Shown here piece by piece: positions 6,234 to 22,971 of a stretch of DNA of 62,152 bases (the stretch's first letter is position 1; every line of letters begins with the position of its first letter). The notes under the pieces are model-generated. The model did no database searches, had not been told where the DNA came from, and saw only the letters and a list, made by a program, of their open reading frames with translations. The stretch is from a virus, in the IMG/VR virus record IMGVR_UViG_3300023178_003128, positions 1 through 62,152 of that record; one strand, 5' to 3'. Both the position numbers and the translations under genes were made by a program.

Positions 6234-6494
6234 ATGGCTGTTGTAAAAAAATTTAAAAACGCTAAACAAACTTTTGGAATGAAAGTTGTAATTGATGATA
6301 GAACTCCTTTTGACAAAGCTTTACGAATATTTAAAAGAAAAGTTGATAATTCAGGTCTTTTAAGAGAAATACGAGAAAGACAAGAATACGAAAAACCCTC
6401 CACCGAGAGAAAACTCGCAAAAAATCGTGCAAAAAAACGCTGGCAGAAAAAGTTTGAACAAACAATTGTTGCCGGTCGTGCCAAAAAATATTAG
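6234..6494 (+). CDS. rpsU: Ribosomal protein bS21
   Basis: 86 aa. The core VIDDRTPFDKALRIFKRKV, followed by SGLLREIRERQEYEKPS and a Lys/Arg-rich tail (RKLAKNRAKKRWQKK), is the bS21 pattern: a Phe/Lys helix, an ExxxRxxYEKP turn and a basic helix. bS21 sits on the 30S platform near the anti-Shine-Dalgarno end and helps initiation. Phage bS21 genes are known, including in SAR11 phages. Late-type motifs on both sides suggest late expression, when it might replace or top up host bS21 to favour phage mRNAs (inference). The N-terminus is about 15 residues longer than the usual bacterial protein. Confidence 0.9.
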   Translation: MAVVKKFKNAKQTFGMKVVIDDRTPFDKALRIFKRKVDNSGLLREIRERQEYEKPSTERKLAKNRAKKRWQKKFEQTIVAGRAKKY

Positions 6495-6569: not shown

Positions 6570-7019
6570 ATGAAAACACCAATTTTATTGGGCGTTTTGT
6601 TATGGTCTTGTTTTGTGGTTTCAGCCCCGCTGGAAGATTTTGAATTTAAGAGTCCAGCCTTTAATGGTAATGGTTATTCTGCTCATGTTTTAACAATTGA
6701 GAATCAGGAACACTCTCGTAAGAAAGCTATTGCAGAAAAACTTGAAGCAAAACTCAAAGAAGCTGAAAGAGAAGCTAATAGCACCAATTTATCCAAATTT
6801 CTTAGCAACCTAGAATCAAGGATATATGCACAAATTAGCCAAGATTTGGCAACAGCAATGTTTGCTGATGATTCGTCATCTCCAACTTCTGGCACATTAA
6901 CATTTGAAGGAAATGTAATTTATTGGGATAAAAGTTCAGGTGATATAGAATTACAAGTTACTGATATAGCAGGCTCAACAACAACAATTACAATACCTTT
7001 GGGTGATTTTACTTTTTAA
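6570..7019 (+). CDS. csgF: Curli assembly factor CsgF homologue
   Basis: 149 aa with a Sec signal peptide (residues 1-19, ...FVVSA). The mature N-terminus FEFKSPAFNGNGYSAHVLTIENQEHSRK matches the CsgF segment that plugs into the CsgG pore. A charged helix follows (about 48-72), then a C-terminal beta region (TLTFEGNVIYWD...). In bacteria CsgF sits at the outer face of CsgG and presents the curlin nucleator. First gene of the operon; its last base is the first base of the csgG ATG, so translation is coupled. No truncation is apparent. Confidence 0.85.
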   Translation: MKTPILLGVLLWSCFVVSAPLEDFEFKSPAFNGNGYSAHVLTIENQEHSRKKAIAEKLEAKLKEAEREANSTNLSKFLSNLESRIYAQISQDLATAMFADDSSSPTSGTLTFEGNVIYWDKSSGDIELQVTDIAGSTTTITIPLGDFTF

Positions 7020-7819
7020 TGAAACACTTATTATTACTACTATTAGCTTTAGTGCTAGTTGGTTGTGCTACTGGTCAAGCGATGCGAGGCGAATACGACC
7101 CGCCAATGGCAGTAGAAAAATCGACTGTTAAAGAATTTGATTCAATAGCAAAACCAAAACTAGGCAAAATAACAGTAGCTGTTTATAATTTTATAGATAA
7201 AACAGGACAAAGACGACCAAGTCAGAATACATCCAGTTTTTCTACTGCTGTTACACAAGGCGCTGAAAGTTTTTTAATTAAAGCACTAAAAGATGTTGGT
7301 GAATGTGGTTGGTTTGATGTGGTTGAAAGAGTTGGATTAGCAAGTCTAACACAAGAAAGACAAATTATACGCCAGATGCGAGAAGCGTATGAAGGTGCTG
7401 ATGCAAAACCACTTATGCCAATGAAATTTGCAGGAATGTTAATTGAAGGTGGTATTACCGGTTATGACCAATCAACAAGAAGTGGCGGAAACGCTGCTAG
7501 ATTGCTTGGCATAGGACCATCAACAAAATATAGTGAAGATATTATTACAGTAAGTTTAAGAGCAGTCAGTGTCAATACTGGTGTGGTATTGGCTGCGGTT
7601 AATGTTCAAAAAACAGTTTATTCTACCGCTGATAGTTTAGCTGTTTTAAAATTTTATGACCAAGGCACACAAGTTTTTGAATTTGAATCTGGTCTTACTT
7701 TAAATGAGCCAGCAACAATGGCAGTTAAAGCTGCTGTTGATGCAGCTGTAGTTGAACTCATTAAAGAAGGCGAAAGGAAGAAAGTTTGGGAATTTGCTAA
7801 CAGTCAGGAGACAAAATGA
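7019..7819 (+). CDS. csgG: Curli secretion pore CsgG homologue (lipoprotein)
   Basis: 266 aa with lipoprotein signal LVGC (Cys16). Recognisable CsgG segments: KITVAVYNFIDKTGQRRPS (about 51-69), SSFSTAVTQGAESFLIKAL, GWFDVVERVGLASLTQERQIIRQ, KFAGMLIEGGITGYDQSTRSGGNAARLLGIGPS, and DIITVSLRAVSVNTGVVLAAVNVQKTVYS, the transmembrane beta-hairpin region. CsgG forms a nonameric outer-membrane channel that secretes unfolded curlin. Full family length, all blocks present. Overlaps csgF by one base and the curlin gene by four. Confidence 0.92.
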   Translation: MKHLLLLLLALVLVGCATGQAMRGEYDPPMAVEKSTVKEFDSIAKPKLGKITVAVYNFIDKTGQRRPSQNTSSFSTAVTQGAESFLIKALKDVGECGWFDVVERVGLASLTQERQIIRQMREAYEGADAKPLMPMKFAGMLIEGGITGYDQSTRSGGNAARLLGIGPSTKYSEDIITVSLRAVSVNTGVVLAAVNVQKTVYSTADSLAVLKFYDQGTQVFEFESGLTLNEPATMAVKAAVDAAVVELIKEGERKKVWEFANSQETK

Positions 7820-8586
7820 ATAAAATAGTAACAATGTTTTTTACATTATTACTGACAATGACGGTTGCGTTTGCAGCTGATAATAGCATTTATATTGACC
7901 AAGTGGGCGGAAGTTCTACAATTGATATTACACAAGATGGTAGTTCAAACAAAGTTTATGGAGTTGGAGATAGTGAAGGAACAGCCGCTACATTTACTGG
8001 TGATAGTCAGACAATTGATATAAGACAAGTTGGTTCAAGTAACTTATTAGGAATTGATTTAAATACTTCGGTTACTTCGGGTGTTGGTATTGATTTAACA
8101 TATTACATTACAGGTTCTAACTCTGTAGCAAGTATTGATGTTAATGGTGACGGTCAAGGTACCGCATCAAACAATACAATTGACATTCAAATGACTGGTG
8201 ATTATAATGACCTAACATTTGATTTACTTGGAACAGGTAATAGTTTAACTGCAACAGCAACTGGTGGTAATTATAACGATTTTGATTTTACCATTAATGC
8301 TGATTCAACCACTTCAAATGTAGCAATTAGTGGTGGCGGTGGTAATACAACAACACTTAATTTATCAAGTGATGATGCAACTGTTGATATTACAGCTGCT
8401 GGTGCAAGTAATACACTATCAGTAACACAAAGCGGTCTTGGTGGAACAAATGGTATGAACTTTGATTTAGATATTACTGGTTCATCTAACTCATTTACTT
8501 CAACACAAGCCGGCTCACAAGACAATGACATTGATGTGAATATTACTGGTTCAAGCAACACATGGACCATTTCACAAGATGACTAA
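7816..8586 (+). CDS. Curlin-like amyloid subunit (CsgA/B type)
   Basis: 256 aa, Sec signal peptide (cleavage after AFA, about residue 20). The rest is Asn/Gln/Ser/Thr/Asp/Gly-rich with imperfect repeats of about 20-25 residues carrying the strand-turn-strand pattern of curlin (such as YIDQVGGSSTIDITQDGSSN, DIRQVGSSNLLGIDL, DITGSSNSFTSTQAGSQDND). It lacks Cys and has almost no Lys or Arg. Longer than bacterial CsgA (about 150 aa). Expected to be exported by CsgG and to polymerise outside the cell. ATGA coupling to csgG and to the FecR gene ties it to the secretion system. Confidence 0.85.
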   Translation: MNKIVTMFFTLLLTMTVAFAADNSIYIDQVGGSSTIDITQDGSSNKVYGVGDSEGTAATFTGDSQTIDIRQVGSSNLLGIDLNTSVTSGVGIDLTYYITGSNSVASIDVNGDGQGTASNNTIDIQMTGDYNDLTFDLLGTGNSLTATATGGNYNDFDFTINADSTTSNVAISGGGGNTTTLNLSSDDATVDITAAGASNTLSVTQSGLGGTNGMNFDLDITGSSNSFTSTQAGSQDNDIDVNITGSSNTWTISQDD

Positions 8587-9683
8587 TGAAAAAGTTTCTA
8601 GCACTCTTATTGTTAATACCCCTATTAGCTGAGAGTGCTATAGGAACTATCACAGACCACAAACACGACCCTCTATCAATCAAAAGACAAGATAAGACAC
8701 TAGAAGGTATTATGGGTACCGGTGTCGAAATGCAAGATACATTACGCACAGGCCAAGGCACGGCTGAAATTACATTTGAAGACCAAACACAAGTTCAAAT
8801 GACACAATCAGCCAAACTTATCATTGATGAGTTTGTCTATGACCCAGCAAATAGTGATGCAAGTAAATTGGCATTAAAGATTGCATCTGGAACGGCTAGA
8901 TACGCTTCTGGACAAATAGCAAAGAATAATCCACAGAAAGTTAAAATTAAAACGCCTAGCGCAACGGTATCGGTCCGTGGTACTGATTTTACTGCAACTG
9001 TTGATGAGATAGGTGCAACAACAGTTATTCTATTACCAAGTTGCCCAGCAGGTTGGCTTGATATGGAAAGAGATTGTATTACAGGTGCAATTGAAGTTGA
9101 ATCCTTAGGTGGTGTTGTTTTTATGGATAAACCATTTGAAGCAACTCGTGTGCCTAACCTAGAAGCAAAACCAACCCCACCAGTTATTGTTGATTTAACA
9201 GAGGAGATGATTCGACAAATTATTATTGTTGGACCACCTAAAGAAATTAAAGAACAAGATGTTGCAGAAGCCTCAAATAATATATTAGATCAAAGTGAAT
9301 TAGATAAAGACTTACTAGAAAATGAACTTGATAAAGAAGATGAAAAACTTTATGAAAACAAACTGGCACAAAATCTATTAGATAGAGATTTTCTTAAAAA
9401 CATTTTAGATATATTAGATTTACAATTAAAACTAGCACAAGAAAGAACATTATCAACACAAGAAAAGAATGAGATACTTCCTGATTATATACCTGACCAA
9501 GGTGTAACAGCAACAGTTGATACAATCAATGTTGAACTTTGTATTGATACGACCGGTAGTGATATTGCTTGTGTCAGAGTTCCCACACACCAAGAAGCTA
9601 CCATAAGACAAATACAAGGCGCTGTTGATATAACAAATAGGGTGAATAGTGAAGGCACGACCATAATTACAACTAAACAATGA
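8586..9683 (+). CDS. Exported FecR-domain protein
   Basis: 365 aa, Sec signal peptide (1-18). The FecR domain spans about 40-145: VEMQDTLRTGQGTAEITFEDQTQVQM, LKIASGTARYASGQ, and KVKIKTPSATVSVRGTDFTATVD. Two Cys (153, 164) may form a disulfide. Residues about 225-285 are a long charged coiled coil (LDQSELDKDLLENELDKEDEK...), followed by a C-terminal domain with a second Cys pair. This is not a Fe-dicitrate sensor: it lacks the cytoplasmic tail and membrane helix of classic FecR. As an infrequently discussed partner of CHASE2 cyclases, it may act as a periplasmic ligand or scaffold (inference). Overlaps both neighbours. Confidence 0.75.
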   Translation: MKKFLALLLLIPLLAESAIGTITDHKHDPLSIKRQDKTLEGIMGTGVEMQDTLRTGQGTAEITFEDQTQVQMTQSAKLIIDEFVYDPANSDASKLALKIASGTARYASGQIAKNNPQKVKIKTPSATVSVRGTDFTATVDEIGATTVILLPSCPAGWLDMERDCITGAIEVESLGGVVFMDKPFEATRVPNLEAKPTPPVIVDLTEEMIRQIIIVGPPKEIKEQDVAEASNNILDQSELDKDLLENELDKEDEKLYENKLAQNLLDRDFLKNILDILDLQLKLAQERTLSTQEKNEILPDYIPDQGVTATVDTINVELCIDTTGSDIACVRVPTHQEATIRQIQGAVDITNRVNSEGTTIITTKQ

Positions 9684-9802
9684 AAACTATAATTCTTATT
9701 TGTGTATTTTTAATTGGTTGCACCACACCTGTGGAAGGCAAGTATCCTGTCAACGAATATTTGAGGCCAAATGGTTGGAACGACCATTTTTGGGTAGCAT
9801 GA
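9680..9802 (+). CDS. 40-aa lipoprotein
   Basis: A tiny frame in a different phase from its neighbours, starting at ATG 9680 (ATGA overlap with the FecR gene) and ending TGA 9800-9802 (overlapping the next ATG at 9799). It encodes MKTIILICVFLIGC, a lipobox with acylated Cys14, then TTPVEGKYPVNEYLRPNGWNDHFWVA, an aromatic tail of 26 residues. Coupling on both sides and a clean lipobox make it convincing despite its size. Perhaps a small partner of the CsgG channel or an anchor for the FecR protein (inference). Confidence 0.65.
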   Translation: MKTIILICVFLIGCTTPVEGKYPVNEYLRPNGWNDHFWVA

Positions 9803-11298
9803 GATACTTAATCACAATACTGTTATTTGTCTGTTCTAATGCGTTTGCTTTAGACATCCTAATTTATCACAACAACTATGCTTACACTGATTCAAAGTCT
9901 GGACTTGAAGGGCAAGGATACACTGTGACAGGCACAACATCAACAACAACTGATTCAGCATCAACTCTGGCAAACTATGATGTAGTATTTGACCAACTAT
10001 ACAACAATAACTGTGGATCAACTTGTCGTGGTAACTATGACACTTATGTTAAAGACGGTGGCACTCTAGTTATCGTGGGCGAGAACTCAAACTTTTCTGG
10101 TAGAAACTCAAACATTGTGAGTTTGATTGAAAACAAGTTTGGAGGCACATTAGATTTAGGTTCTGATGTTTATGGTGGAGAATATTACACGGGTGGCACG
10201 AACAACACAACCAATACATCAATTAGTGGCGCTGATGATGGCGGACAATATATTGCTGGATCAAGTATTGCCACAACATCAGACGGCACTTGGGTAGCAA
10301 AGACCTCTGGTGGCGCCATAATTTGGATGATGTGGCGTGGCAGTAGTTTGCCAAGTGGCTACACGGGTTCTGTTATAGTGACATTTGACATTAATCAGTT
10401 CCAAGCAAGTTATGATAGTGATGCTACCTGGGAATTCTTTGATGATGTTGTTTATTATGGTATCAATGGTGAAATGCAATCAAGTTCACCAACAACATCT
10501 ACCACAACAGGAACAAGTGGTGGTATAACATCAGCACAGTCAACATCTAAGAGCCAAGCAAGAACAAGAAGCGATAGTTACACAAATGGTAATACTGTTT
10601 ATATTGACCAGATTGGTAATAATAATACCGTAACAATCGAACAAGATGGCACAGCAACAAATACTATCAAAGGAATATATCTAAATGGTAATGATGCTGG
10701 TGTAATAAATGGAAGTTCAAATACAATTGAAATGAGACAAGGTGCTGACACAAGCACATCATCAAACTTAATTGAGTTTTCTATTATTGGTAGCACAAAC
10801 GATGTATTGTTATACCAAGATAGATTGAATACAGGATATGAAGACACACAAGCTGGTGGTGGCCATACAATACAATTAGATTTAGATGGTGATTTAAATG
10901 ACATTGATATTATTCAAAGAAATAACTATGATACCAATGGTGGTCATTTTGTAAATTTAGAAGTAACAGGTGATAGTAATGTTTTAGATTTAAAACAAAT
11001 TTCTGACTATGGTAAAAATATATTTGGTAAAGTAACAGGTGATTCAAATAATGTTACTGTTTATCAACACGATGATTCAAACAAATACCTAGATTTCAAT
11101 TTAACTGGTGATGGTCATACAATTGATGTTGAACAAACCGGTACAGGTGCTCATAATGCTGAGATTGATTTAACATATGGTTCAGCTTCATCAACAGTTA
11201 ATTTACTTCAACAAGGTTCAACCAACCAAAGTTACTCAATAGAACAAACTTGTTATACAACAGGTGGATGTTCAACCACCGTAACTCAAGGCCAATAA
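9799..11298 (+). CDS. Large curlin-repeat protein with N-terminal globular domain
   Basis: 499 aa from ATG 9799, chosen over the upstream in-frame start at 9700 because it begins a clear signal peptide (MRYLITILLFVCSNAFA) and couples to the lipoprotein. Residues 18-245 form a globular domain (ILIYHNNYAY..., YDVVFDQLYNN, GGTLVIVGENSNFSGRN, GGAIIWMMWRG) resembling ThuA/GATase-like alpha/beta domains. A Ser/Thr linker (about 230-265) follows, then about 230 residues of curlin-type repeats (VYIDQIGNNNTVTIEQDG; VTGDSNVLDLKQ; GDGHTIDVEQTGTG). It could be the nucleator (CsgB role) or an adhesive fibre tip. The final repeats carry two Cys. Confidence 0.8.
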   Translation: MRYLITILLFVCSNAFALDILIYHNNYAYTDSKSGLEGQGYTVTGTTSTTTDSASTLANYDVVFDQLYNNNCGSTCRGNYDTYVKDGGTLVIVGENSNFSGRNSNIVSLIENKFGGTLDLGSDVYGGEYYTGGTNNTTNTSISGADDGGQYIAGSSIATTSDGTWVAKTSGGAIIWMMWRGSSLPSGYTGSVIVTFDINQFQASYDSDATWEFFDDVVYYGINGEMQSSSPTTSTTTGTSGGITSAQSTSKSQARTRSDSYTNGNTVYIDQIGNNNTVTIEQDGTATNTIKGIYLNGNDAGVINGSSNTIEMRQGADTSTSSNLIEFSIIGSTNDVLLYQDRLNTGYEDTQAGGGHTIQLDLDGDLNDIDIIQRNNYDTNGGHFVNLEVTGDSNVLDLKQISDYGKNIFGKVTGDSNNVTVYQHDDSNKYLDFNLTGDGHTIDVEQTGTGAHNAEIDLTYGSASSTVNLLQQGSTNQSYSIEQTCYTTGGCSTTVTQGQ

Positions 11299-11308
11299 AT
11301 AAGAAACT

Positions 11309-13309
11309 ATGAATAAATTATTATCGCCTTGGTGGGCACTTTTATTACTTTTTATATTAATCCCGATTCGAGTAAATGATTATGCTTTTGTTGAATCATT
11401 ACGATTAAGATATTTTGATACACTGATAACATCAGTACCAGAAACAACAAACAATATACATCTGGTTAATATTGACGAATCAGCACTTGAAAAACATGGA
11501 CAGTTTCCATTTAATCGTGGTGTTTATGCTGACATCATTGAAGATTTATATAAAAGAAAAGCCGGTCTAGTTATATTTAATATAATGATGCCTGAGAAAG
11601 ATAGGTCAGGTGAAGATTTTAAATTAATAGAAACATTAAAAAATTATCCTATCATATTACCTAATGCTGGTTCAGATGTAACAAAAAATGAACCAAAAAA
11701 TCCAGGTGCAGTTTCAATTGGTATTAGTAGAGACAAAACAGTTGAATATCCTGGTATCATAGCCAACATAAAAGAATTAGAACAACTTGCTTCTGGTGTT
11801 GGCATTGTAAATACATTTCCTGAGATTGATGGTGTGACACGAAGAATGCCATTAGTCATTTCAAGTAATAATATTCTTTATCCTAGTTTATCACTTGAGA
11901 CTTTGAGAGTTATTGCTGGTGACCCAAGTTTTCAAATTAAATTTAATGAACTTGGTGTTCAAGCATTAAGAATACCACAGTTTGGTAAAATACAGACGGA
12001 TACCATTGGTCGTATATGGATTGATTGGCAACAAAAAGGTGTCGAACATAGTCTAACTAAACTTCCAGATTCTTTTGATGATGGTGTTGTAATCGTAGGT
12101 GTGACAGCGAAAGGATTATCAAATCCAATTTCTACAAGCATAGGCGAAGTATGGCCACATTATGCACAAGCTTCAGTTGTAGGAACTTTGTTCAATAATG
12201 TTAATATATCAAGGCCTGATTGGGCTGACGGTGCTGAATTACTCAGCATTGTTGTTTTATCAATCATACTACTTTTAATATCGAGGTGGAAATATGGAAT
12301 TATTCCTAACATTGGTATTATTTACGGTTTGTATTATACTTCGATGTATGTTTTCCAAAGAGAAAATATATTATTGGACGCTTCTTTTCCTATTGTCAGT
12401 GTGGTTATTGTTTATAGTATTGGTTATACGCTTAAATTTCTATCTGAATTAAGACAAAAACTACAAATTAAAAAACAATTTGGAACTTATCTATCACCAG
12501 CTCTTGTAGAAAAACTACAAAAGAATCCTGAGTTACTTAAACTCGGTGGTGAGACACGAGAATTATCAATTATGTTTTCAGATGTTCGTGGTTTCACAAC
12601 CATATCTGAACACTATGGAAAAGATGTTCAAGGTTTAACTCAAATTATGAACCGTTATATGACCGCTATGACACAAAAAATACTTGATAACAACGGAACA
12701 CTTGACAAGTATATTGGTGATGCTCAGATGGCATTTTGGAATGCCCCACTTGATGACAGAGACCATGCTAAAAATGCTGTTAAGACAGCTCTTCAAATGT
12801 TGGAAGACTTAAGGAGTTTTAACCATGAAATCTCAAAAGAAGGTATCCCGCCGTTCGGTATGGGATTGGGTATTAATTCTGGCGATGTGGTTGTGGGTAA
12901 TATGGGCAGTTCTCAGCGCTTTGACTATACTTGTTTGGGCGATAGCTGTAATCTCGCATCAAGGTTAGAGGGTCAAAGTAAAAATTATGGTGTTGAATTA
13001 ATCATTGGTAAAAGAACCGCAGATTTAATACAAGATGAATATGATGTTGTTGAATTAGATACAATTGCTGTAAAAGGTAAAACACTAGGTGTCAAAATAT
13101 ATACAGTGACACCTATGCCAGATAAAACAGAACATAAAAAGTTCTTAAGAGCATATTATGCTGGTGAATGGAAAACGGCTTTACTAATGACAGGTAAATT
13201 AAGAATACAAAATTCTCAACTAATTAAATATTATGATTTAATGGCAGAAAGATTAAAACAAGGTGTTCCTGCTAAATGGGATGGAGTATATCACGCTACT
13301 TCGAAGTAG
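11309..13309 (+). CDS. CHASE2-domain class III adenylate cyclase
   Basis: 666 aa. N-terminal signal anchor (6-22); periplasmic CHASE2 domain (about 30-300: RYFDTLI, VNIDESALEKHGQFPFNRGVYADII, GLVIFNIMMPE, DGVTRRMPLVI); three membrane segments (about 308-378); class III cyclase domain (415-590). Catalytic residues are present: metal Asp425 in FSDVRGFT, Asp471 in DKYIGDAQMAFW with Lys467, substrate-specifying Asp539 in FDYT, and Asn548/Arg552 in NLASRLEG. The Lys/Asp pair points to ATP over GTP. It should make cAMP in the cytoplasm in response to a periplasmic cue. Full bacterial length; same strand and 10 nt after the curlin-repeat gene. Confidence 0.9.
   Translation: MNKLLSPWWALLLLFILIPIRVNDYAFVESLRLRYFDTLITSVPETTNNIHLVNIDESALEKHGQFPFNRGVYADIIEDLYKRKAGLVIFNIMMPEKDRSGEDFKLIETLKNYPIILPNAGSDVTKNEPKNPGAVSIGISRDKTVEYPGIIANIKELEQLASGVGIVNTFPEIDGVTRRMPLVISSNNILYPSLSLETLRVIAGDPSFQIKFNELGVQALRIPQFGKIQTDTIGRIWIDWQQKGVEHSLTKLPDSFDDGVVIVGVTAKGLSNPISTSIGEVWPHYAQASVVGTLFNNVNISRPDWADGAELLSIVVLSIILLLISRWKYGIIPNIGIIYGLYYTSMYVFQRENILLDASFPIVSVVIVYSIGYTLKFLSELRQKLQIKKQFGTYLSPALVEKLQKNPELLKLGGETRELSIMFSDVRGFTTISEHYGKDVQGLTQIMNRYMTAMTQKILDNNGTLDKYIGDAQMAFWNAPLDDRDHAKNAVKTALQMLEDLRSFNHEISKEGIPPFGMGLGINSGDVVVGNMGSSQRFDYTCLGDSCNLASRLEGQSKNYGVELIIGKRTADLIQDEYDVVELDTIAVKGKTLGVKIYTVTPMPDKTEHKKFLRAYYAGEWKTALLMTGKLRIQNSQLIKYYDLMAERLKQGVPAKWDGVYHATSK
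13296..13309. terminator. Palindromic hairpin at convergent gene ends
   Basis: CTACTTCGAAGTAG is a perfect 14-nt palindrome ending the cyclase gene, followed on the plus strand by T-rich DNA (13311-13325). It may be a weak terminator for the plus operon. The T-richness is also Lys codons of the opposing gene, so this is tentative. Confidence 0.3.
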
Positions 13310-13565
13310 AATCTTTTCCTTTTTTTCTTTCTTCTTCTTCTCGTAATTGTAGGATTGTATTGAGTTTTTGATTAAGGCGAATAAGGTCATTATCTAACAT
13401 ACGAACTCTATCAATTAAATCAATTAATATCTTTTGTGCATCACCGATAACTGGTGCAACTTCCTCAGTTACCCATTTCCAAATAAAGTAAATGAAGTAA
13501 CCAAGGCCGAAGACTGCTATGATTGGAAAACCATAGTTTTGTATTAATTCTGCTATATTATCCAA
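13296..13565 (-). CDS. Holin-like membrane protein with coiled coil (copy 2)
   Basis: 89 aa: MDNIAELIQNYGFPIIAVFGLGYFIYFIWKW (one membrane segment about 12-30), then an amphipathic coiled coil (AQKILIDLIDRVRMLDNDLIRLNQKLNTIL) and a charged tail. It shares its layout and residues (GFPI-A, GYF, ND-IR) with the protein at 14320-14598, so the two are paralogues. Size, single N-terminal segment and charged tail fit small holins, but no family was identified. Last gene of the minus-strand cluster; its 3' end overlaps the convergent cyclase gene by 14 bases. Confidence 0.65.
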   Translation of the reverse strand: MDNIAELIQNYGFPIIAVFGLGYFIYFIWKWVTEEVAPVIGDAQKILIDLIDRVRMLDNDLIRLNQKLNTILQLREEEERKKGKDSTSK

Positions 13566-14319: not shown

Positions 14320-14598
14320 TTAATCCTTCCGAGCGTCATTCTTTCCGTCAGCTCGAGCAATGCGATTGATATCTGGTTTAACACCTAGAGCGGACGACAT
14401 AAGAGTGTCTATGCGAATAACATCGTGATTCATAGTTTTTACACGATTGTCTAATGCTATAATAATGCCACTCAGACGCTTGACAGAATCAGTCACATCT
14501 GATAGAATAAATTTCAATGTTAAAAAAACAAAATAACCGGCAGCCATTGCAGCTGCAATTGGAAATCCTACATCGGTTACTAAACTTAAAAAGTCCAT
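14320..14598 (-). CDS. Holin-like membrane protein with coiled coil (copy 1)
   Basis: 92 aa: MDFLSLVTDVGFPIAAAMAAGYFVFLTLKFIL (one membrane segment) then VKRLSGIIIALDNRVKTMNHDVIRIDTLM (coiled coil) and a charged tail. Paralogue of the 89-aa protein at 13296. First gene of the minus cluster, 30 nt downstream of a late-promoter motif, with a GAGG ribosome site. The pair of one-helix proteins with exported partners could form a holin/antiholin or spanin-type lysis set, but this is inference from size and topology. Confidence 0.65.
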   Translation of the reverse strand: MDFLSLVTDVGFPIAAAMAAGYFVFLTLKFILSDVTDSVKRLSGIIIALDNRVKTMNHDVIRIDTLMSSALGVKPDINRIARADGKNDARKD

Positions 14599-16058: not shown

Positions 16059-16466
16059 ATGTTACTATTTTCCGAAATATTTGAACAGATTGAAATAGCT
16101 GTTGATAAAAAAAGCCGTATTGAAATTTTACAAAAAAACGATTCTTTATCATTAAGAGAATTTTTTCGTTTATTGTATGATGATAATATTGAATTTGATG
16201 TAGAGATTCCTAAGTATAGACCAGCGATTGAACCAGCTGGACTTAACTTTACCTATCTTCATTCAGAAGTAAAGAAACTTTATCGTTTTATTAAAAATGA
16301 ACCTAGAGCAGTTATGCTAACACCAAAAAAGAAATCAGAAATATTGGTTGTTATTTTGGAATCATTGCATAAAGATGAAGCTAAACTACTGGTTGGATTA
16401 ATCAACAAAGATATAGGTGTAAGACACTTAAATGAAGCTTTAGTAAAAGAAGCTTATAGTTTATGA
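16059..16466 (+). CDS. DUF6433 family protein
   Basis: 135 aa matching the DUF6433 pattern of T4-like marine phages: an N-terminal MLLFSEIFEQIE helix, LSLREFFRLLYDDNIEFDVEIP, PAGLNFTYLHSEVKKLYRFIKN, and LHKDEAKLLVGLINKD with the end LNEALVKEAY. Function unknown. It starts 2 nt after the rnh stop and overlaps the glycosyltransferase start as ATGA, placing it in the replication-gene transcript. Confidence 0.7.
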   Translation: MLLFSEIFEQIEIAVDKKSRIEILQKNDSLSLREFFRLLYDDNIEFDVEIPKYRPAIEPAGLNFTYLHSEVKKLYRFIKNEPRAVMLTPKKKSEILVVILESLHKDEAKLLVGLINKDIGVRHLNEALVKEAYSL

Positions 16467-17167
16467 AAGTAGCGGTTGTTACACCGACCATTGGTTCTGA
16501 ACATTTGGAACAATGTGTTGAATCTGTAAGAAAACAAACCTACGAAAATCATATTCATTATGTTGTAAAAGATGGAATGAATGTTAAAGTTCCGTCATAC
16601 CTGAACCTTTTGCCTGATGTAAAGTTTATTACACTAGATGAAAATGTTGGTAAAGGTTGGTATGGTCATCGTGTTTATGCAGCTTGTTCTTTTTTAGTTA
16701 ATGCTGATGTTATTTGTTACTTGGATGAAGACAACTGGCTTGAACCAAACCATATTGAGGAAGTTGTAAAAACTTTAGAACAAGGTAATGATTGGTGCTA
16801 TTCGTTAAGAAATATTGTTGATAAAAATGGAGAATTTATTTGTGAAGACAACTGTGAATCTTTGGGTCATTGGCCAGTTTATTTTAATCCAGAAGTTCAT
16901 CATATTGACACATCATGTTTTGCCGTTCGCCGTGATATTGCTGTTAGAATTGGTCACGCTTGGTATGGACAATGGGGTGCAGATAGACAATTCTTTGCAA
17001 ACATAAAACATAACTTTGAAAAATGGACCTGCACAACAAAATATACAGTAAACTATCGTTTAGATGGAAATGAAGGCTCTGTAACAAAAGAATTTTTTGA
17101 TAAAGGCAATCAAGCCTCAAAGGAAAAATATAATAACAAATATCCTTGGACAGGAGAAAAACTTTGA
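16463..17167 (+). CDS. Family 2 glycosyltransferase
   Basis: 234 aa, GT-A fold. KVAVVTPTIGSEHLEQCVESVRKQTYEN is the usual nucleotide-sugar strand-helix; the DxD-type motif is DED at 88-90 in VICYLDEDNWLEPNH; WGADRQFF near 175 is the probable acceptor/base region. It would move a sugar from a nucleotide donor to an unknown acceptor, perhaps phage DNA, tail proteins or host surface glycan. Its 3' end overlaps a GalE-type epimerase gene by 4 bases, so sugar supply and transfer are co-translated. Confidence 0.8.
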   Translation: MKVAVVTPTIGSEHLEQCVESVRKQTYENHIHYVVKDGMNVKVPSYLNLLPDVKFITLDENVGKGWYGHRVYAACSFLVNADVICYLDEDNWLEPNHIEEVVKTLEQGNDWCYSLRNIVDKNGEFICEDNCESLGHWPVYFNPEVHHIDTSCFAVRRDIAVRIGHAWYGQWGADRQFFANIKHNFEKWTCTTKYTVNYRLDGNEGSVTKEFFDKGNQASKEKYNNKYPWTGEKL

Positions 17168-18132
17168 CTAAATCCGTTTTAATTACAGGTGTAACCGGTT
17201 ATCTTGGAAATCATGTAGCAAAAGCTTTCAAAAAGAAAGATTGGACAGTTCATGGTTTTGATAACAAACATACAACAAATCCATACCTTGATGTTTTTAC
17301 ACCAGGCGATGTAACAGACCCAGCTGCTTTAGATAGATTATTTGGAACATGGAAATTTGACATGGTTGTTCATTTAGCGGCTAGAATAGAAGCAGGAATA
17401 TCTGTTAAAGAACCACACACATTCTATCAAACAAACACAGGCGGAACCGCTAATGTTGTTAAAGCAATGATTGACCATGGTGTAGATAAAATTGTATTCT
17501 CATCAACCGCTGCTGTTTATAAAACAAAAGAAGAACCTATCAAAGAAACGGACCCTTTAGAATTTAATTCACCTTATGGACATTCTAAGCAAATGGCTGA
17601 AGAAATCATTCAGAGGTCTGGATTAAAATATACAATATTTCGTTTTTTCAATTTAACAGGCGCTGATCCTGATGGTGAATTTGGTGAAGCACATGAACCA
17701 GAAACACATTTAATACCAAGATTAATAATGAACCAAGAAAATGGCAAATTCATTATAAATGGTACAGATTATCCAACAGAAGACGGAACTAATGTAAGAG
17801 ATTATGTTCATGTTACAGATGTTGCTGAGGCTATCTATGATGGCGCTAGACATTTAAATTCAAGCGGACAATCTGATATATTTAATCTTGGATGTGGCAC
17901 AGGTTATGGTATCATGCAAATTATAGATGAACTAGAAATCTGTTCGGGTAAAAAAGTAAAATATAAAATTGGTCCTAGAAGACAAGGCGATGCCGTTAGT
18001 CTTATAGCTGACATAACAAAAGCGAAGGAGGTTTTAAACTATACTAGGAGATTTGATATCGTTTCTATCCTAAATACTGCATATAAATGGCATAATAGAG
18101 ATACAGATGAAGAAACGACCTCAAAAGTATAA
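17164..18132 (+). CDS. galE: UDP-glucose 4-epimerase (GalE-like)
   Basis: 322 aa, short-chain dehydrogenase fold. Start taken as TTG 17164 (TTGA overlap) because AGGAG lies 8 nt upstream at 17152-17156; a TTG at 17146 is in frame but less well placed. NAD motif GVTGYLG (9-15); catalytic set in VFSSTAAVY (112-119) and Tyr138/Lys142 in SPYGHSK; substrate block NVRDYVHVTDVAEA; FNLGCGTGYG. It interconverts UDP-Glc and UDP-Gal (or the GlcNAc/GalNAc pair). Expected length. Its last 26 bases overlap the ClpP gene. Confidence 0.85.
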   Translation: MTKSVLITGVTGYLGNHVAKAFKKKDWTVHGFDNKHTTNPYLDVFTPGDVTDPAALDRLFGTWKFDMVVHLAARIEAGISVKEPHTFYQTNTGGTANVVKAMIDHGVDKIVFSSTAAVYKTKEEPIKETDPLEFNSPYGHSKQMAEEIIQRSGLKYTIFRFFNLTGADPDGEFGEAHEPETHLIPRLIMNQENGKFIINGTDYPTEDGTNVRDYVHVTDVAEAIYDGARHLNSSGQSDIFNLGCGTGYGIMQIIDELEICSGKKVKYKIGPRRQGDAVSLIADITKAKEVLNYTRRFDIVSILNTAYKWHNRDTDEETTSKV

Positions 18133-18712
18133 ACCACCTAATGCTGTAGATAAAGATTTAGATGATTTTCTTTTATCATCTGAACGAATAAACACAGCAC
18201 TGTTAAATAATCACATTAATTTTTTAACAGGCGAAATTAACGAAGAAAATACAACAGAGATTATCCGTTGGATTGCTTATGAGAATACATTAGCAACCGA
18301 AGTGCCTTTGACATTGTTTATCAATTCAACAGGAGGAAGTTTGACTGATGCGTTTGCATTGATTGATATCATGCACAACTCACACCGTAAGATAAGAACT
18401 TTTGGAATTGGTAATATAATGAGTGCAGCTTTTCTAATCTTTACATCTGGAATGAAAGGTGAAAGATACATAGGAAAGAATACAAGTATAATGTGCCATC
18501 AATATACTGGTGAAATTTATGGAAAACACCACGACTTGACAGCACAATATAAAGAGACTGAATCTTTAAATCAAAGAATGGTTGAAGTATTAAAACAGGC
18601 TACATATTTGGATGAACGAACAATTAAAAAAAGATTGTTACCACCATCTGATGTTTGGCTTTCACCAGATGAAATTATTGATTTGGGTATTGCAGACCGC
18701 TTAATAAGTTAG
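18107..18712 (+). CDS. ClpP-family serine protease
   Basis: 201 aa. The ClpP fold is clear: LTLFINSTGGSLTDAFALIDIM (68-89), nucleophile Ser106 in GIGNIMSAAFLIFTSG, His131 in IMCHQYTG, Asp182 in PPSDVWLSPDEIIDLGIAD. The triad is intact; the Ser motif is NIMSAA rather than the usual QAASM. The N-terminal about 25 residues are basic and variable. In bacteria ClpP needs a ClpX/ClpA partner; none is in the window, so it may use the host ATPase or process phage proteins such as head proteins (inference). Similar genes occur in marine phages. Confidence 0.85.
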   Translation: MKKRPQKYKPPNAVDKDLDDFLLSSERINTALLNNHINFLTGEINEENTTEIIRWIAYENTLATEVPLTLFINSTGGSLTDAFALIDIMHNSHRKIRTFGIGNIMSAAFLIFTSGMKGERYIGKNTSIMCHQYTGEIYGKHHDLTAQYKETESLNQRMVEVLKQATYLDERTIKKRLLPPSDVWLSPDEIIDLGIADRLIS

Positions 18713-18721
18713 GGGTAAAAA

Positions 18722-18871
18722 ATGGAATCAGCTATAAGGTTTTTTCAAAGCAGAATAATCCAACTTACTTTTGAAATAGAAGAAAGAGAAACTGAAATTA
18801 AAAAGTATGAAGCGTTGATTAATGAGGTGGAAAAAGAAAATAGCAAAGAACAACAACTTACATTATTTTAA
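18722..18871 (+). CDS. 49-aa coiled-coil protein with C-terminal clamp-binding motif
   Basis: A short gene in a 160-nt gap: ATG 18722, TAA 18869-18871, next gene 3 nt later. AGGGG lies upstream at 18711-18715. It encodes one long charged helix (LTFEIEERETEIKKYEALINEVEKE) and ends exactly in QQLTLF. QLxLF/QxxLF is the peptide by which bacterial proteins dock on the DnaN sliding clamp, and a C-terminal position is typical. This suggests binding to a sliding clamp, host or phage. No family recognised. Confidence 0.6.
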   Translation: MESAIRFFQSRIIQLTFEIEERETEIKKYEALINEVEKENSKEQQLTLF

Positions 18872-18874
18872 ATT

Positions 18875-19120
18875 ATGAAAAATGAAAAACATGAAATTCT
18901 GACCATTTTAATGGAGGAATGTGCTGAGGCTTCAATTGAAGCATCAAAAATAATTAGATTTGATAATGGATATGATAGACTGGAATCTGAACTAGGAGAT
19001 ATCTATTGTATGATAGAAATCTTAATAGAACACGGCCTTATCAAAAAAGAGCATTTAGAAAGTTGTGCTCAAGCAAAACGCATGAAACTTCGTCAGTGGA
19101 GTGATATTAAAAATTTATAA
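18875..19120 (+). CDS. MazG-like nucleotide pyrophosphohydrolase
   Basis: 81 aa, all-alpha NTP pyrophosphatase. The metal motifs are visible: EECAE (14-18) and ESELGD (37-42), an ExxE...ExxD arrangement, with helices between. Short single-domain MazG proteins are common in marine T4-like phages and hydrolyse dNTPs or modified nucleotides; a role in lowering ppGpp has been proposed but is disputed. Ends one base into the methyltransferase ATG. Confidence 0.75.
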   Translation: MKNEKHEILTILMEECAEASIEASKIIRFDNGYDRLESELGDIYCMIEILIEHGLIKKEHLESCAQAKRMKLRQWSDIKNL

Positions 19121-19794
19121 TGGATTTAATAAATCAAGATTTTAAAAATCAAATTAGAAACCAATATCTTACGGAAAATGTTTCTTTATTTCTATATTCA
19201 CTAATTCAGACCTGTAGGCCAAAAAATATTATAGAATTTGGAACGGGTTATTCAACTCTTTTTATTTCACAAGCAATCAATGATATTAAAAATGAAAATC
19301 CTAAATTTATTGAATATTTAAGAGATAATGATTATTCAACAGATGATTATTTAAGTCATACAAAATTTTATAATCCAAAATTTACAGTCGTTGATAATTT
19401 TAGTGATGGATCTGCTATACACGAAACGGCCGATATTTTAAAAAATAATTCTTTAGATGATAACATCACATTTGTAAATCAAGATATATTTGATTTTATT
19501 AAAACAGATAATGAGCTTTATGATTTTGTTTGGCTTGATGCTGGTGGTGCTGAAGAATATATGAGAATCACTGAACATTTCTTACAAAAGCTTCCACCAA
19601 ATGGAATAATAATTATTCATAGTACCGTTGGAAATCTTATGGGTAAATTATTTGTAAGTGAGTTGAAAATGAATCATATGGGAAACCATAATATAGAAAT
19701 TATGACTTTTGAAGAACCGCATAAAAAAATTCAAAATAGTTTTACCGTTTTGAAAAGACAGGGGCACTATAAAGTGTATTCTGTGAATGCTTAA
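19120..19794 (+). CDS. Class I SAM-dependent methyltransferase-like protein
   Basis: 224 aa. Motif I is PKNIIEFGTGYSTLFIS (34-50), followed by the acidic strand end FTVVDNF (87-93), and motif IV YDFVWLDAGGAEEY (about 139-152). These fit a Rossmann methyltransferase. No DNA-methylase (N/D)PPY motif is seen, so a protein, sugar or small molecule target is more likely. Position near GT2, GalE and carbamoyltransferase would suit glycan decoration (inference). Confidence 0.65.
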   Translation: MDLINQDFKNQIRNQYLTENVSLFLYSLIQTCRPKNIIEFGTGYSTLFISQAINDIKNENPKFIEYLRDNDYSTDDYLSHTKFYNPKFTVVDNFSDGSAIHETADILKNNSLDDNITFVNQDIFDFIKTDNELYDFVWLDAGGAEEYMRITEHFLQKLPPNGIIIIHSTVGNLMGKLFVSELKMNHMGNHNIEIMTFEEPHKKIQNSFTVLKRQGHYKVYSVNA

Positions 19795-19812
19795 TTTTAT
19801 AATGGAGAAATT

Positions 19813-20376
19813 ATGACTTATATTTACTATAATATACAGCCGTTCAAATGTGATGCCTTCCATAACGGTGAAATGAAAACAATTACAGAAGAAAATCTAC
19901 AAGGCCAATGGTCTGTATTATTTTTCTATCCTGCTGATTTTACTTTTGTTTGTCCAACCGAACTAGGTGATTTAGCGGACAACTATGAAGAATTCCAAAA
20001 GATTGGTTGTGAGATTTATTCTATCTCAACCGATACAAACTTTACTCACATGGCGTGGCACGAAGCATCACCAACTGTGGGTAAAATTCAATATCCAATG
20101 TTAGGTGATCCTACTGGACATTTAGCAAAACAACTTGGTGTTTATATTGAGTCCAAAGGTCTTGCTGAACGAGCAACATTTGTGATTGACCCCAAAGGTC
20201 AAATTCAAATAGTTGAAATGACAGCCGGTCGTATTGGTCGAAGTGCAGAAGAACTGCTCAGAAAAGTAAAAGCCGCTCAATATGTTGAAGCAAATCCAAA
20301 CGAAGCTTGTCCTGCTAAATGGAAAGAAGGTGATACCACATTGACACCACATTTAGATTTAGTTGGCAAAATCTAA
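19813..20376 (+). CDS. ahpC: Peroxiredoxin AhpC
   Basis: 187 aa, the same length as E. coli AhpC and closely similar throughout. Peroxidatic Cys47 in FYPADFTFVCPTELGDLAD, STDTNFTHMAWHEASP, resolving Cys166 in ACPAKWKEG, and the conserved ending LDLVGKI. A typical 2-Cys peroxiredoxin reducing H2O2 and organic peroxides; it normally needs AhpF or a thioredoxin system for recycling, and none is seen here, so host reductant is implied. GGAG ribosome site before ATG 19813. The high similarity to bacterial enzymes points to acquisition from a host (inference). Confidence 0.93.
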   Translation: MTYIYYNIQPFKCDAFHNGEMKTITEENLQGQWSVLFFYPADFTFVCPTELGDLADNYEEFQKIGCEIYSISTDTNFTHMAWHEASPTVGKIQYPMLGDPTGHLAKQLGVYIESKGLAERATFVIDPKGQIQIVEMTAGRIGRSAEELLRKVKAAQYVEANPNEACPAKWKEGDTTLTPHLDLVGKI

Positions 20377-20444
20377 TATGACACTTTTATGACAAAACTT
20401 CATTTAGGTGCCAGGCTATGAAATATTTCCTTTAAATACCTTTT

Positions 20445-20564
20445 GTGGAAAACTTAAGCATAATTCAAATTATAGTGGCCTTCGCAGTAGGCTCATTAGT
20501 AATTGGTGCTATATTAAGTTGGATATATTTAATCTGGATTTTTATAAAGGAAAAATTTTCATGA
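20445..20564 (+). CDS. 39-aa single-pass membrane protein (GTG start)
   Basis: In the gap between ahpC and the barrel gene a frame runs from GTG 20445 to TGA 20562-20564, overlapping the next ATG (ATGA). It encodes MENLSIIQIIVAFAVGSLVIGAILSWIYLIW plus a basic tail IFIKEKFS, one clear membrane helix. No strong ribosome site, hence moderate confidence; the ATGA coupling is the main support. Confidence 0.45.
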   Translation: MENLSIIQIIVAFAVGSLVIGAILSWIYLIWIFIKEKFS

Positions 20565-21127
20565 AGAAAATTCTATTAGCAGTATTACTTGCAACATCTC
20601 TAACTGTTATGGCAGAAGAGCAAACTAAAAAAGGTTACTATGTTGGCCTTAAATTAACACATGAAGATAATAAAAATGGCAGTGATGCTGATAAATGGGG
20701 TATGACATTTGGTAAGCATTTATATAAATGGTTAGATGCTGAAATTTATACAAGAACAAAAGATAAAGACACCGGTAGTAATGATACCAAACTTGAAGGT
20801 GCCGTGATTGGTAAGTATAAATTAACCGATAGTCTATCCGCCTATACTCGTGCCGGTATTGGTAACAAATACACACGAGATGAAGACTATGGTTATTGGA
20901 CAATTGAACCAGGTTTAAAATATAAACTCAATGATGATTGGTCAGTTAAAACGGGTGTTCGTTTCCGTGACGCTTTTCAAACAGACCATAATGCTAATGA
21001 TACAACATATAAAACAAGTGTTGGATATAAACTTACAGACGATACTTCTATCGATATGGGTTATGCCCTTAAACGAGGCGATTCAAAAACAGAAGAATTT
21101 GGTTTAGGACTTAAGTTCGAATTTTAA
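20561..21127 (+). CDS. Small outer-membrane beta-barrel protein
   Basis: 188 aa from ATG 20561 (AAAGGA upstream), preferred over an in-frame start at 20408 because it begins a signal peptide (MKKILLAVLLATSLTVMA). The mature protein alternates hydrophobic/polar strands (GYYVGLKLTHED; WGMTFGKHLYKWLDAEIYTRTKD; LSAYTRAGIGNKY; YWTIEPGLKYKLNDDWSVKTGVRFRD; YKTSVGYKLTDDTSIDMGYALKRG) and ends EFGLGLKFEF, with the terminal Phe recognised by the Bam machinery. About eight strands, OmpA/OmpW-size. A phage-made barrel may block the receptor (superinfection exclusion) or alter permeability (inference). Confidence 0.8.
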   Translation: MKKILLAVLLATSLTVMAEEQTKKGYYVGLKLTHEDNKNGSDADKWGMTFGKHLYKWLDAEIYTRTKDKDTGSNDTKLEGAVIGKYKLTDSLSAYTRAGIGNKYTRDEDYGYWTIEPGLKYKLNDDWSVKTGVRFRDAFQTDHNANDTTYKTSVGYKLTDDTSIDMGYALKRGDSKTEEFGLGLKFEF

Positions 21128-21138
21128 CCAAAAAAAGC

Positions 21139-21167
21139 TTGACAAATCTCCATTTTTCTGATACCAT
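21139..21167 (+). promoter_or_regulatory. sigma70-type promoter P4 nested in a terminator
   Basis: TTGACA (21139-21144), 17-nt spacer, TACCAT (21162-21167). This copy has CTGA instead of TGT before the -10. Predicted start about 21174, after the 5' arm of the hairpin, so P4 transcripts cannot form it. Confidence 0.6.
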
Positions 21168-21197
21168 CCAGGTGTAAAGTGAAATGGAGATTTTTTT
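21146..21197 (+). terminator. Terminator hairpin for upstream read-through
   Basis: AATCTCCATTT (21146-21156) pairs with AAATGGAGATT (21182-21192), 11 bp, followed by T21193-21197. The 5' arm lies in the spacer of promoter P4 and the 3' arm contains the GGAG ribosome site of the gene at 21198. Confidence 0.6.
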
Positions 21198-21404
21198 ATG
21201 GGTAAAGTAAAAGAGTTATATACAGAATATACCGAATTACTTAAAAGTGCAGACTGGTATTTTGAATATTCAGATGACCATAGAGTATGGCAATCTGGTG
21301 TTAATCAATTTCAACAACTTGAAAAAATGGCACAAGAAATTGACCCAAAATACACAATCTGGAACGAGTATGCACCAGATGCTTTTAAAGTAACAATTGA
21401 TTAA
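21198..21404 (+). CDS. 68-aa soluble protein of unknown function
   Basis: MGKVKELYTEYTELLKSADWYFEYSDDHRVWQSGVNQFQQLEKMAQEID..., a helical, aromatic-rich small protein; family not recognised. GGAG at 21186-21189 before ATG 21198. Expressed from P4 and its stop lies inside the start region of the carbamoyltransferase. Confidence 0.65.
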   Translation: MGKVKELYTEYTELLKSADWYFEYSDDHRVWQSGVNQFQQLEKMAQEIDPKYTIWNEYAPDAFKVTID

Positions 21405-22971
21405 ATTAGGCATTCAAAAACATCATAACTGCTCTATCAGTTTGTTTGATGATAATAAACTTCTATTCTATATGGAAGAAGATAGATTATCAAAAACTAA
21501 ACATACCGGTGGAGTTCCTATAAATTCTTTAATAGAATTAAAAAAATTAAATTACAATATTGATAAAGTTTATTTAACTGGTTACAATCATAATTATGAT
21601 GAAGCTATTTTGGTGACGACTGCGGTTAGACAAATTTTAAAAATAGACCAAAAAATAGCAATTAATTGGGAAGAATATCAATACAGCCATCATACAACAC
21701 ACGCTTTTAAAGCATTTGAATCATCTGGTTTTAATGATGCAATAATTATTGTCAGCGATGGAAGAGGAAGTAGTTATGGTGTCATGGACAATGATACGAG
21801 AAACGGAATAAATTATGAATTATCTTCAATATTTTATTTTTCAAAACATATAAAAAGAACACTATTTAAACACTTATATACAGAAAACTTATCAAGATTC
21901 AAATTATTAAATATACCTTTTGAATATGAAACAAAGTTTACTGAACATTTGAGTGGTGGTAATTTATACGCTCAAGCTACAACAAAAATAGGATTAAATT
22001 CTAATGAAGAAGGTAAGTTTATGGGTTTGGCTGCGTATGGCAAATATGATAAACGATACGATAAAAATTTTAGATATGAAGAATTACAAAAACTTAAAAT
22101 TGATAATTTTGCTAACTTTGCTTTTACAATCCAATCTAATTTAGAAGAATATAGAAAAAATCTTTTACTTAAAGCTTTAGAACATAAAATGACAAATAAT
22201 ATTGTATTAACAGGTGGTGTAGCTTTAAATGTTGTTTCAAATTACAAACTTAAACAAACTTTCAATGAACTTAATTTTTATGTTGAACCCATGTGTGGTG
22301 ATGAAGGCAATTCAATTGGAATTGTTAATTTTTTAGGTGGAACAAATACAGGTAAGTTAAAAGATATTTACATTGTTGGAAATAATCCTATCTATCATAC
22401 CAATTTTGAAGGTTTCAATTTTATTGATGTGAAAGAAAAAGATATTGTTGATTTATTATGTAAAAAAAATATGGTTTGTATATTTCAAGGAAAAGCTGAA
22501 GCTGGCCCAAGAGGTTTAGGAAACAGAAGTATTTTATTTGACCCTAGAGTAAAAAACGGAAAAGACATAGTTAATAAAGTTAAAAAACGAGAAGAGTATA
22601 GGCCTTTTGCTTGTTCAATTATGCATGAATTCGCTAATGATTGGTTTGACATGGCCGGTTTAGATGAATCACCATTTATGATGTATGCTGTGCAAGCTAA
22701 AAAAGATATTAAGAAAAAAATACCATCAGTTATACATGAAGACAATACTTGTAGAGTTCAGACGGTTAAAAGTGAGCAGAATAAAGCTTTATATGATTTA
22801 TTAAAAGCTTTTAATGAAAAAACTGGTGTTCCAGTTTTGTTTAACACATCGTTTAATTTAGCAGGAGAAACAATAGTTCATACTTTAGAAGATGCAATAG
22901 ACACGCTCAGGCGCTCCAAACTAAAATATCTTTACTTACCCGAACTTAAAAAATTGGCAATAAAAGCTTGA
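21397..22971 (+). CDS. Carbamoyltransferase (NodU/TobZ family)
   Basis: 524 aa, TTG start at 21397 overlapping the previous gene by 8 bases. The N-terminal Kae1-like domain has the metal site YSHHTTHAFKAFE (about 96-108), IIIVSDGRGSSYG, GKFMGLAAYGKYD and NNIVLTGGVALNVVSNYKL. The C-terminal domain carries FQGKAEAGPRGLGNRSILFDPR, EYRPFACSIM and GVPVLFNTSFNLAGETIV. The family moves a carbamoyl group from carbamoyl phosphate (via carbamoyl-AMP) onto a sugar or antibiotic hydroxyl. Common in marine T4-like phages, substrate unknown. Slightly shorter than the bacterial enzymes (about 560-600 aa). Confidence 0.88.
   Translation: MIKLGIQKHHNCSISLFDDNKLLFYMEEDRLSKTKHTGGVPINSLIELKKLNYNIDKVYLTGYNHNYDEAILVTTAVRQILKIDQKIAINWEEYQYSHHTTHAFKAFESSGFNDAIIIVSDGRGSSYGVMDNDTRNGINYELSSIFYFSKHIKRTLFKHLYTENLSRFKLLNIPFEYETKFTEHLSGGNLYAQATTKIGLNSNEEGKFMGLAAYGKYDKRYDKNFRYEELQKLKIDNFANFAFTIQSNLEEYRKNLLLKALEHKMTNNIVLTGGVALNVVSNYKLKQTFNELNFYVEPMCGDEGNSIGIVNFLGGTNTGKLKDIYIVGNNPIYHTNFEGFNFIDVKEKDIVDLLCKKNMVCIFQGKAEAGPRGLGNRSILFDPRVKNGKDIVNKVKKREEYRPFACSIMHEFANDWFDMAGLDESPFMMYAVQAKKDIKKKIPSVIHEDNTCRVQTVKSEQNKALYDLLKAFNEKTGVPVLFNTSFNLAGETIVHTLEDAIDTLRRSKLKYLYLPELKKLAIKA

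Follow-up and report, generated by a model that had tools for sequence, protein, structure and literature searches.

We consider it moderately probable that the last gene of a curli cassette, located in the window (the complete 62,152-nucleotide record IMGVR_UViG_3300023178_003128 of an aquatic phage, from IMG/VR), encodes a phage membrane adenylate cyclase of class IIIb through which a trans-envelope sensor delivers its output. The gene is a divergent further case of a known arrangement. Passages of Wittmers et al. (2022, PMC9599517) describe a pelagiphage type VIII secretion (T8SS)/curli cluster with FecR and adenylate cyclase and argue for its alphaproteobacterial origin, and the curli part in phages is described in passages of Zaragoza-Solas (2020, PMC7029224) and Buchholz (2022, PMC9004378). 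The term CHASE2 does not occur in the main text of PMC9599517, and the CHASE2 domain, the active-site residue types and the receptor gap are absent from the passages found in these three papers. The present analysis adds three points: FecR and the CHASE2 cyclase are a recurrent bacterial pair without csgG, the viral cyclases show three types of active site, and a receptor gap appears in the sampled SAR11-family genomes and in 21 phage records.

A previous sequence-only reading had assigned to this reading frame a CHASE2 sensor, three membrane spans and a class III cyclase. Its coordinates and strand proved exact, and both domains are confirmed by Pfam and by the AlphaFold2 (AF2) fold (Table 1). 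The matches to PF05226 and PF00211 both lie far above the curated cut-offs (for Guanylate_cyc PF00211, 73.3 bits against 21.9), and phrog_35576 covers the protein over its full length. The AF2 model, built on an 84-sequence alignment, has a mean pLDDT of 90 and places the CHASE2 fold at about residues 46-304 and the cyclase fold at about residues 413-604. The three spans do follow the CHASE2 domain, and the model adds a further span at the N-terminus. CHASE2 is placed between this first helix and the three later ones and is periplasmic by predicted topology; both termini would be cytoplasmic, because the number of spans is even. The helix of residues 359-391 is long enough to include the signalling helix. 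The modelled cyclase domain superimposes on CyaB of P. aeruginosa (3r5g; Z 23.8, rmsd 1.8 A over 188 residues) and on CyaC of Spirulina (1wc1; Z 23.1). The VIA-align list contained no experimental structure matching the CHASE2 part, but matches to the cyclase domain dominated this list, which was uninformative on the CHASE2 fold.

Table 1. Features of the curli cassette and of the cyclase in the window
Feature	Positions	Strand	Basis
csgF, curli pore-associated chaperone	6570..7019	+	PF10614 E 1.9e-13
csgG, curli outer-membrane pore	7019..7819	+	PF03783 E 2.9e-49; phrog_20175
Curlin-repeat fibre protein 1	7816..8586	+	PF07012 E 1.6e-4
FecR-domain protein, probable periplasmic partner of CHASE2	8586..9683	+	PF04773 E 4.6e-11; phrog_37870 E 1.2e-107; AF2 pLDDT 73
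Curlin-repeat fibre protein 2	9700..11298	+	PF07012 E 7.9e-5
CHASE2 class IIIb adenylate cyclase, 666 aa	11309..13309	+	ATG start; Pfam, PHROGs, alignments, AF2
Cyclase N-terminal transmembrane helix, aa 8-23	11330..11377	+	AF2 secondary structure
CHASE2 domain, aa 15-322 (Pfam bounds take in flanking helices)	11351..12274	+	PF05226 E 5.5e-34
Three membrane spans, helices aa 305-324, 331-352, 359-391	12221..12481	+	AF2
Class III cyclase domain, aa 417-599	12557..13105	+	PF00211 E 2.4e-20; Asp425, Lys467, Asp471, Thr541, Asn548, Arg552
C-terminal helices and tail, WDGVYHATSK at end, aa 607-666	13127..13306	+	AF2; HTVC008M cyclase without tail

Asp425, Asp471, Lys467, Asn548 and Arg552 are present and invariant or nearly so in an alignment of 83 sequences (the first viral scan and two isolates), as had been claimed for the two metal-binding aspartates and for Asn548/Arg552. 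The claimed ATP-selecting pair Lys467/Asp539 holds for the lysine and needs correction for the aspartate. The segment RFDYTCLG aligns residue by residue with RMDYTIIG of P. aeruginosa CyaB (PaCyaB) and RSDFTAIG of CyaC, and the partner of Lys467 is therefore Thr541, which also has the appropriate spacing, seven residues before Asn548. Lys467 and Thr541 match the corresponding residues of CyaC and PaCyaB, which is the class IIIb pattern. The catalytic domains of these two enzymes resemble that of the window cyclase in fold (Z 23), in the Lys/Thr residues and in the metal Asp pair; their sensor domains differ from its own. Threonine or serine instead of aspartate for adenine selection is a mark of class IIIb, described in part in PMC3383692. 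On the evidence of an intact ATP-selective class III site, the product of the window cyclase is very probably cAMP.

The PADLOC models of the pyrimidine cyclase PycC also match the catalytic domain (best E 5.9e-28), which raises the question of a Pycsar-like cyclase or of a decoy against Pycsar defence. We regard this as very improbable, because the match spans only the core shared by class III enzymes. The determinants for UTP (Tyr50, Asp94, Arg97) and for CTP (Phe100, Arg142, Gln144) reported in PMC11224242 differ from Lys467/Thr541; judged only by the spacing from the second metal Asp, Lys467 and Ile469 stand where EaPycC has Arg142 and Gln144. Moreover, PycTIR is described as having a cNMP-binding domain as its receptor part, and no such domain is encoded in the window. 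Identity as a Pycsar cyclase was rejected.

Threonine at the class IIIb partner position is also said to predict bicarbonate sensitivity in cyclases similar to soluble adenylate cyclase (PMC3383692), and Thr541 occupies this position in the alignment with CyaC. The main input could then be bicarbonate/CO2 or pH instead of an envelope cue, and the cyclase would report how the infected cell stands in inorganic carbon or in energy. This appears improbable to us, since serine takes this position in the HTVC008M-type cyclases and in most bacterial members (Ser in 30/32 bacterial relatives, Thr in 2/32), and since the full CHASE2 sensor and the membrane topology are kept under constraint, with a dN/dS of ~0.06-0.29 for CHASE2 in close viral pairs. 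Over the whole cyclase gene, dN/dS in such pairs is ~0.08-0.18, usually with lower values for the catalytic domain, which argues that the protein is selected as an enzyme in most lineages.

Three types of active site are found among the viral cyclases, as defined by positions 541 and 548 in 115 sequences, two of which end before the site. The Thr/Asn type, to which the window cyclase belongs, accounts for 85; the Ser/Asn type of HTVC008M accounts for 16, plus one in which Asp425 is changed to Tyr; and the Asp/Ser type of Melnitz, in which the transition-state Asn is lost, accounts for 11. The Melnitz-type sequences, with Asp at 541 and Ser for Asn548, are L082, L165, L177-L179 and L203-L208. 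These enzymes may be inactive or altered within a conserved cassette.

The cassette in the window has the order csgF-csgG-curlin-FecR-curlin2-cyclase. The true start of the second curlin-repeat protein is probably the ATG at 9799, because a signal-peptide-like sequence begins there in the translation. That the cyclase is phage-encoded, as previously stated, is well founded: the window carries T4-type genes for RNase H, gp59 and gp32 as well as baseplate and tail genes, and on this gene content it is a T4-like phage. An identical cassette is present in a separately listed contig (L002). By one baseplate protein, the nearest isolates are Melnitz and HTVC008M, with only 37-39% identity. A misassembly with bacterial DNA is excluded by the T4-like genes, the copy in L002, the viral group in the cyclase tree and the occurrence of the cassette in cultured phages.

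Several neighbouring genes deserve mention in their own right. A phage ribosomal protein bS21 (6234-6494, +; PF01165 E 8.2e-16) is encoded directly upstream of the cassette. Just downstream of the cyclase, on the opposite strand, lie two short paralogues (13296-13565, - and 14320-14598, -), both assigned to phrog_18771. They look holin-like; each has a single hydrophobic helix at the N-terminus, and the tail is charged. The stretch 16463-22971 (+) contains surface and auxiliary genes: a glycosyltransferase, an epimerase, ClpP, a methyltransferase, a peroxiredoxin, an outer-membrane beta-barrel and a carbamoyltransferase. The sequence CATAAATA occurs in the window 74 nt before csgF, and a baseplate gene and a cell-wall hydrolase gene are preceded by sites like it. 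Late-promoter timing of the cassette was nevertheless dropped as an explanation, because the motif was found upstream of csgF in 15/73 relatives versus 10 expected, which is near chance.

The association of the cyclase with csgG is general among the phages surveyed. It was found in 27/27 phage contigs that could be judged, although these include near-copies of one phage and are not 27 independent cases. In the csgG-anchored scan, the cyclase was found directly in 26/27 contigs with >6.5 kb after csgG; in the remaining contig, listed both as L170 and as L075, it lies ~13 kb further along. Conversely, the cyclase-anchored scan yielded at least 598 candidate stretches, of which at least 597 encode a relative. 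The isolates HTVC008M and Melnitz carry the cassette in the same order. In L026, L055 and L056, the curli genes are on the strand opposite to the cyclase, and co-transcription is therefore not essential. A podophage contig that is binned inside a SAR11-family genome assembly (L220, contig C1 of genome G396) has endolysin, terminase and portal genes downstream of the cassette. In HTVC008M, the second curlin gene (L083, 8604-9929) encodes a PA14 domain before the repeats, which is possibly a glycan-binding part.

The best bacterial relatives of the window cyclase are CHASE2 cyclases with 32-37% identity, almost only from alphaproteobacteria. In the phylogeny called for by the sequence-only reading, an unrooted tree of 29 viral sequences and 32 bacterial sequences picked by similarity, a branch with full support separates all viral members from the bacterial ones. 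FecR is encoded directly upstream of the CHASE2 cyclase in at least 27/75 evaluable bacterial loci, a lower bound because of long upstream genes and many loci that end early. A profile search of 80 bacterial CHASE2-cyclase loci found no csgG. The bacterial FecR partners often contain cadherin, laminin-G or RTX repeats. FecR-CHASE2 clusters with cAMP cyclases have been described in Campylobacterota (PMC9239204), and FecR accompanies a CHASE2 histidine kinase in a Burkholderia biofilm operon (PMC5192318). We infer that FecR-CHASE2 is a recurrent bacterial envelope-sensing pair, which phages adopted and connected with the secretion of curli.

A role of the phage FecR protein as an iron regulator is not supported by its sequence, because Pfam gives the FecR domain only, with no anti-sigma domain, and because the N-terminus is signal-peptide-like by eye. 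Pairwise FecR distances track those of csgG (partial r 0.74) and, after control for csgG, those of the CHASE2 half of the cyclase (partial r 0.58), each with 0/999 permutations, and there is no positive link between csgG and CHASE2 distances when FecR is held fixed. Together with the conserved synteny, this correlated divergence supports the earlier suggestion that the cyclase is linked to curli and FecR. The pattern fits FecR as the link between secretion pore and sensor. However, FecR sits between csgG and the cyclase, and gene order and recombination, or even the order by itself, could produce this correlation in the absence of contact. Residues 307-365 of the phage FecR protein form a series of short strands in which a conserved Q.QG...I.N pattern looks, by eye, like curlin repeats. 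Such C-terminal strands might contact the curli fibre.

In the mechanism that we propose, the secreted FecR-domain protein would inform the periplasmic CHASE2 domain about the condition of the outer envelope, be it the CsgG pore, the curli fibre or a peptidoglycan contact. From CHASE2, the three membrane helices and then the signalling helix would relay the signal to the dimeric cyclase, which would convert ATP to cAMP. The FecR/CHASE2-cyclase pair would have been acquired as a ready-made envelope sensor from alphaproteobacteria-like cells and coupled to curli secretion in the phage. A related idea is that the module times lysis, with the opening of the CsgG pore being sensed and cAMP helping to trigger or delay lysis. 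Passages of PMC9004378 propose that phage CsgGF pores regulate lysis, and in the podophage contig an endolysin follows the cassette. However, the word cyclase is absent from the text of PMC9004378, whose proposal left the enzyme aside; no lysin was found beside the cassette in the window, whose closest recognised cell-wall hydrolase lies at 27410-27967; and a conserved late-promoter motif was not found upstream of csgF. A function in lysis timing has, in our estimate, a small probability, and we retain the envelope sensor with a cAMP output as the preferred reading.

The sequence-only reading had further proposed that the phage may raise host cAMP, which would act through a CRP-like transcription factor and reprogram host genes. 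Such a circuit has precedent in bacteria: according to passages of PMC13001267, the CRP-type regulator Clr of S. meliloti receives its input from CHASE2 cyclases. The search for a CRP-like receptor was run on the SAR11 family, which includes the host of HTVC008M but not necessarily that of the window phage. This family was recognised with four 16S probe sequences presumed to be specific for SAR11; two genomes match 4/4 probes, and their family comprises the 41 genomes surveyed. The SAR11 441R probe was not found in a literature search. An attempt to type the host by similarity to the Melnitz tmRNA was uninformative, because short matches occur in SAR11 and non-SAR11 genomes alike.

HTH_Crp_2 was above the cut-off in 0/41 SAR11-family genomes and PF00027 in 1/41 (G396), where it occurs in two places, the one examined being part of an ABC exporter. 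None of the 41 genomes contains a class III cyclase of the host's own; the one in G396 was rejected as a host gene, since it lies on the phage contig with the curli cassette, endolysin, terminase and portal genes. The completeness of these genomes is unstated, so that single absences mean little, and the overall pattern is consistent. The phages themselves do not appear to supply a known receptor either, as the cNMP-binding domain PF00027 is above the cut-off in 0/21 phage records, including the complete genomes of Melnitz and HTVC008M. A weak PF00027 match in phage contig G441 (14.6 bits, below the cut-off) begins ~70 bases past csgG, at the place of the curlin gene (L170/L075), and was discounted.

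The absence of CRP-type regulators from the 41 genomes makes a classical cAMP-CRP circuit unlikely for SAR11-type hosts, and phages of this group, such as HTVC008M, still keep the cyclase. The window phage may have another host that possesses CRP, and for such a host the survey is no refutation. Overall, transcriptional reprogramming through a host CRP-like protein is unlikely, and the earlier proposal is unsupported by the SAR11 survey. In SAR11-type hosts, the cAMP receptor is probably not a CRP/FNR protein; cAMP might have a target of another fold, or the target might be absent and the enzyme serve another role. As a tentative extension of the envelope-sensor reading, which we hold with low confidence, the phage may carry a self-contained circuit: FecR and CHASE2 would sense curli/CsgG secretion and signal it by way of cAMP to hosts with neither CRP/FNR nor a class III cyclase. 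In such hosts, cAMP would be a foreign messenger with a receptor of an unrecognised kind.

Known phage and bacterial systems can be compared with the window cyclase. With HTVC008M (KC465899) and the cluster of Wittmers et al. it shares the order csgF-csgG-curlin-FecR-curlin-cyclase, the combination of CHASE2 and class III cyclase and the alphaproteobacterial affinity. In contrast, the HTVC008M and Melnitz cyclases are only 38-39% identical to it and have Ser or Asp at position 541 instead of Thr, and the HTVC008M cyclase lacks the C-terminal tail. The FecR-adjacent CHASE2 cyclases of Bradyrhizobium, Thalassospira and other bacteria, including the Campylobacterota described in PMC9239204, resemble it in the CHASE2-TM-cyclase architecture, the FecR neighbour, the conserved catalytic residues and the WDG..ATSK tail, but their FecR protein is often of a large surface type and no csgG is present in the flanks examined. 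In S. meliloti, passages of PMC13001267 report that the outer-membrane barrel NsrA feeds the CHASE2 cyclases CyaD1, CyaD2 and CyaK together with the CRP-family regulator Clr. Activation of CHASE2 cyclases through an outer-membrane barrel protein is a further parallel to the phage module; the S. meliloti system differs in having a clear CRP-family receptor, and curli or FecR are not mentioned in these passages.

Little is understood about second-messenger enzymes of lytic phages, and the enzyme described here goes together with a cassette for amyloid secretion, the purpose of which is disputed. Phage cyclases of this curli-linked kind are widespread in aquatic viromes. The SAR11 survey sharpens the general idea that phage cAMP alters host transcription into a more specific question: what binds cAMP where no CRP-type protein is available? 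In addition, the view of FecR as a secreted partner of CHASE2, and not as an iron regulator, provides a testable model.
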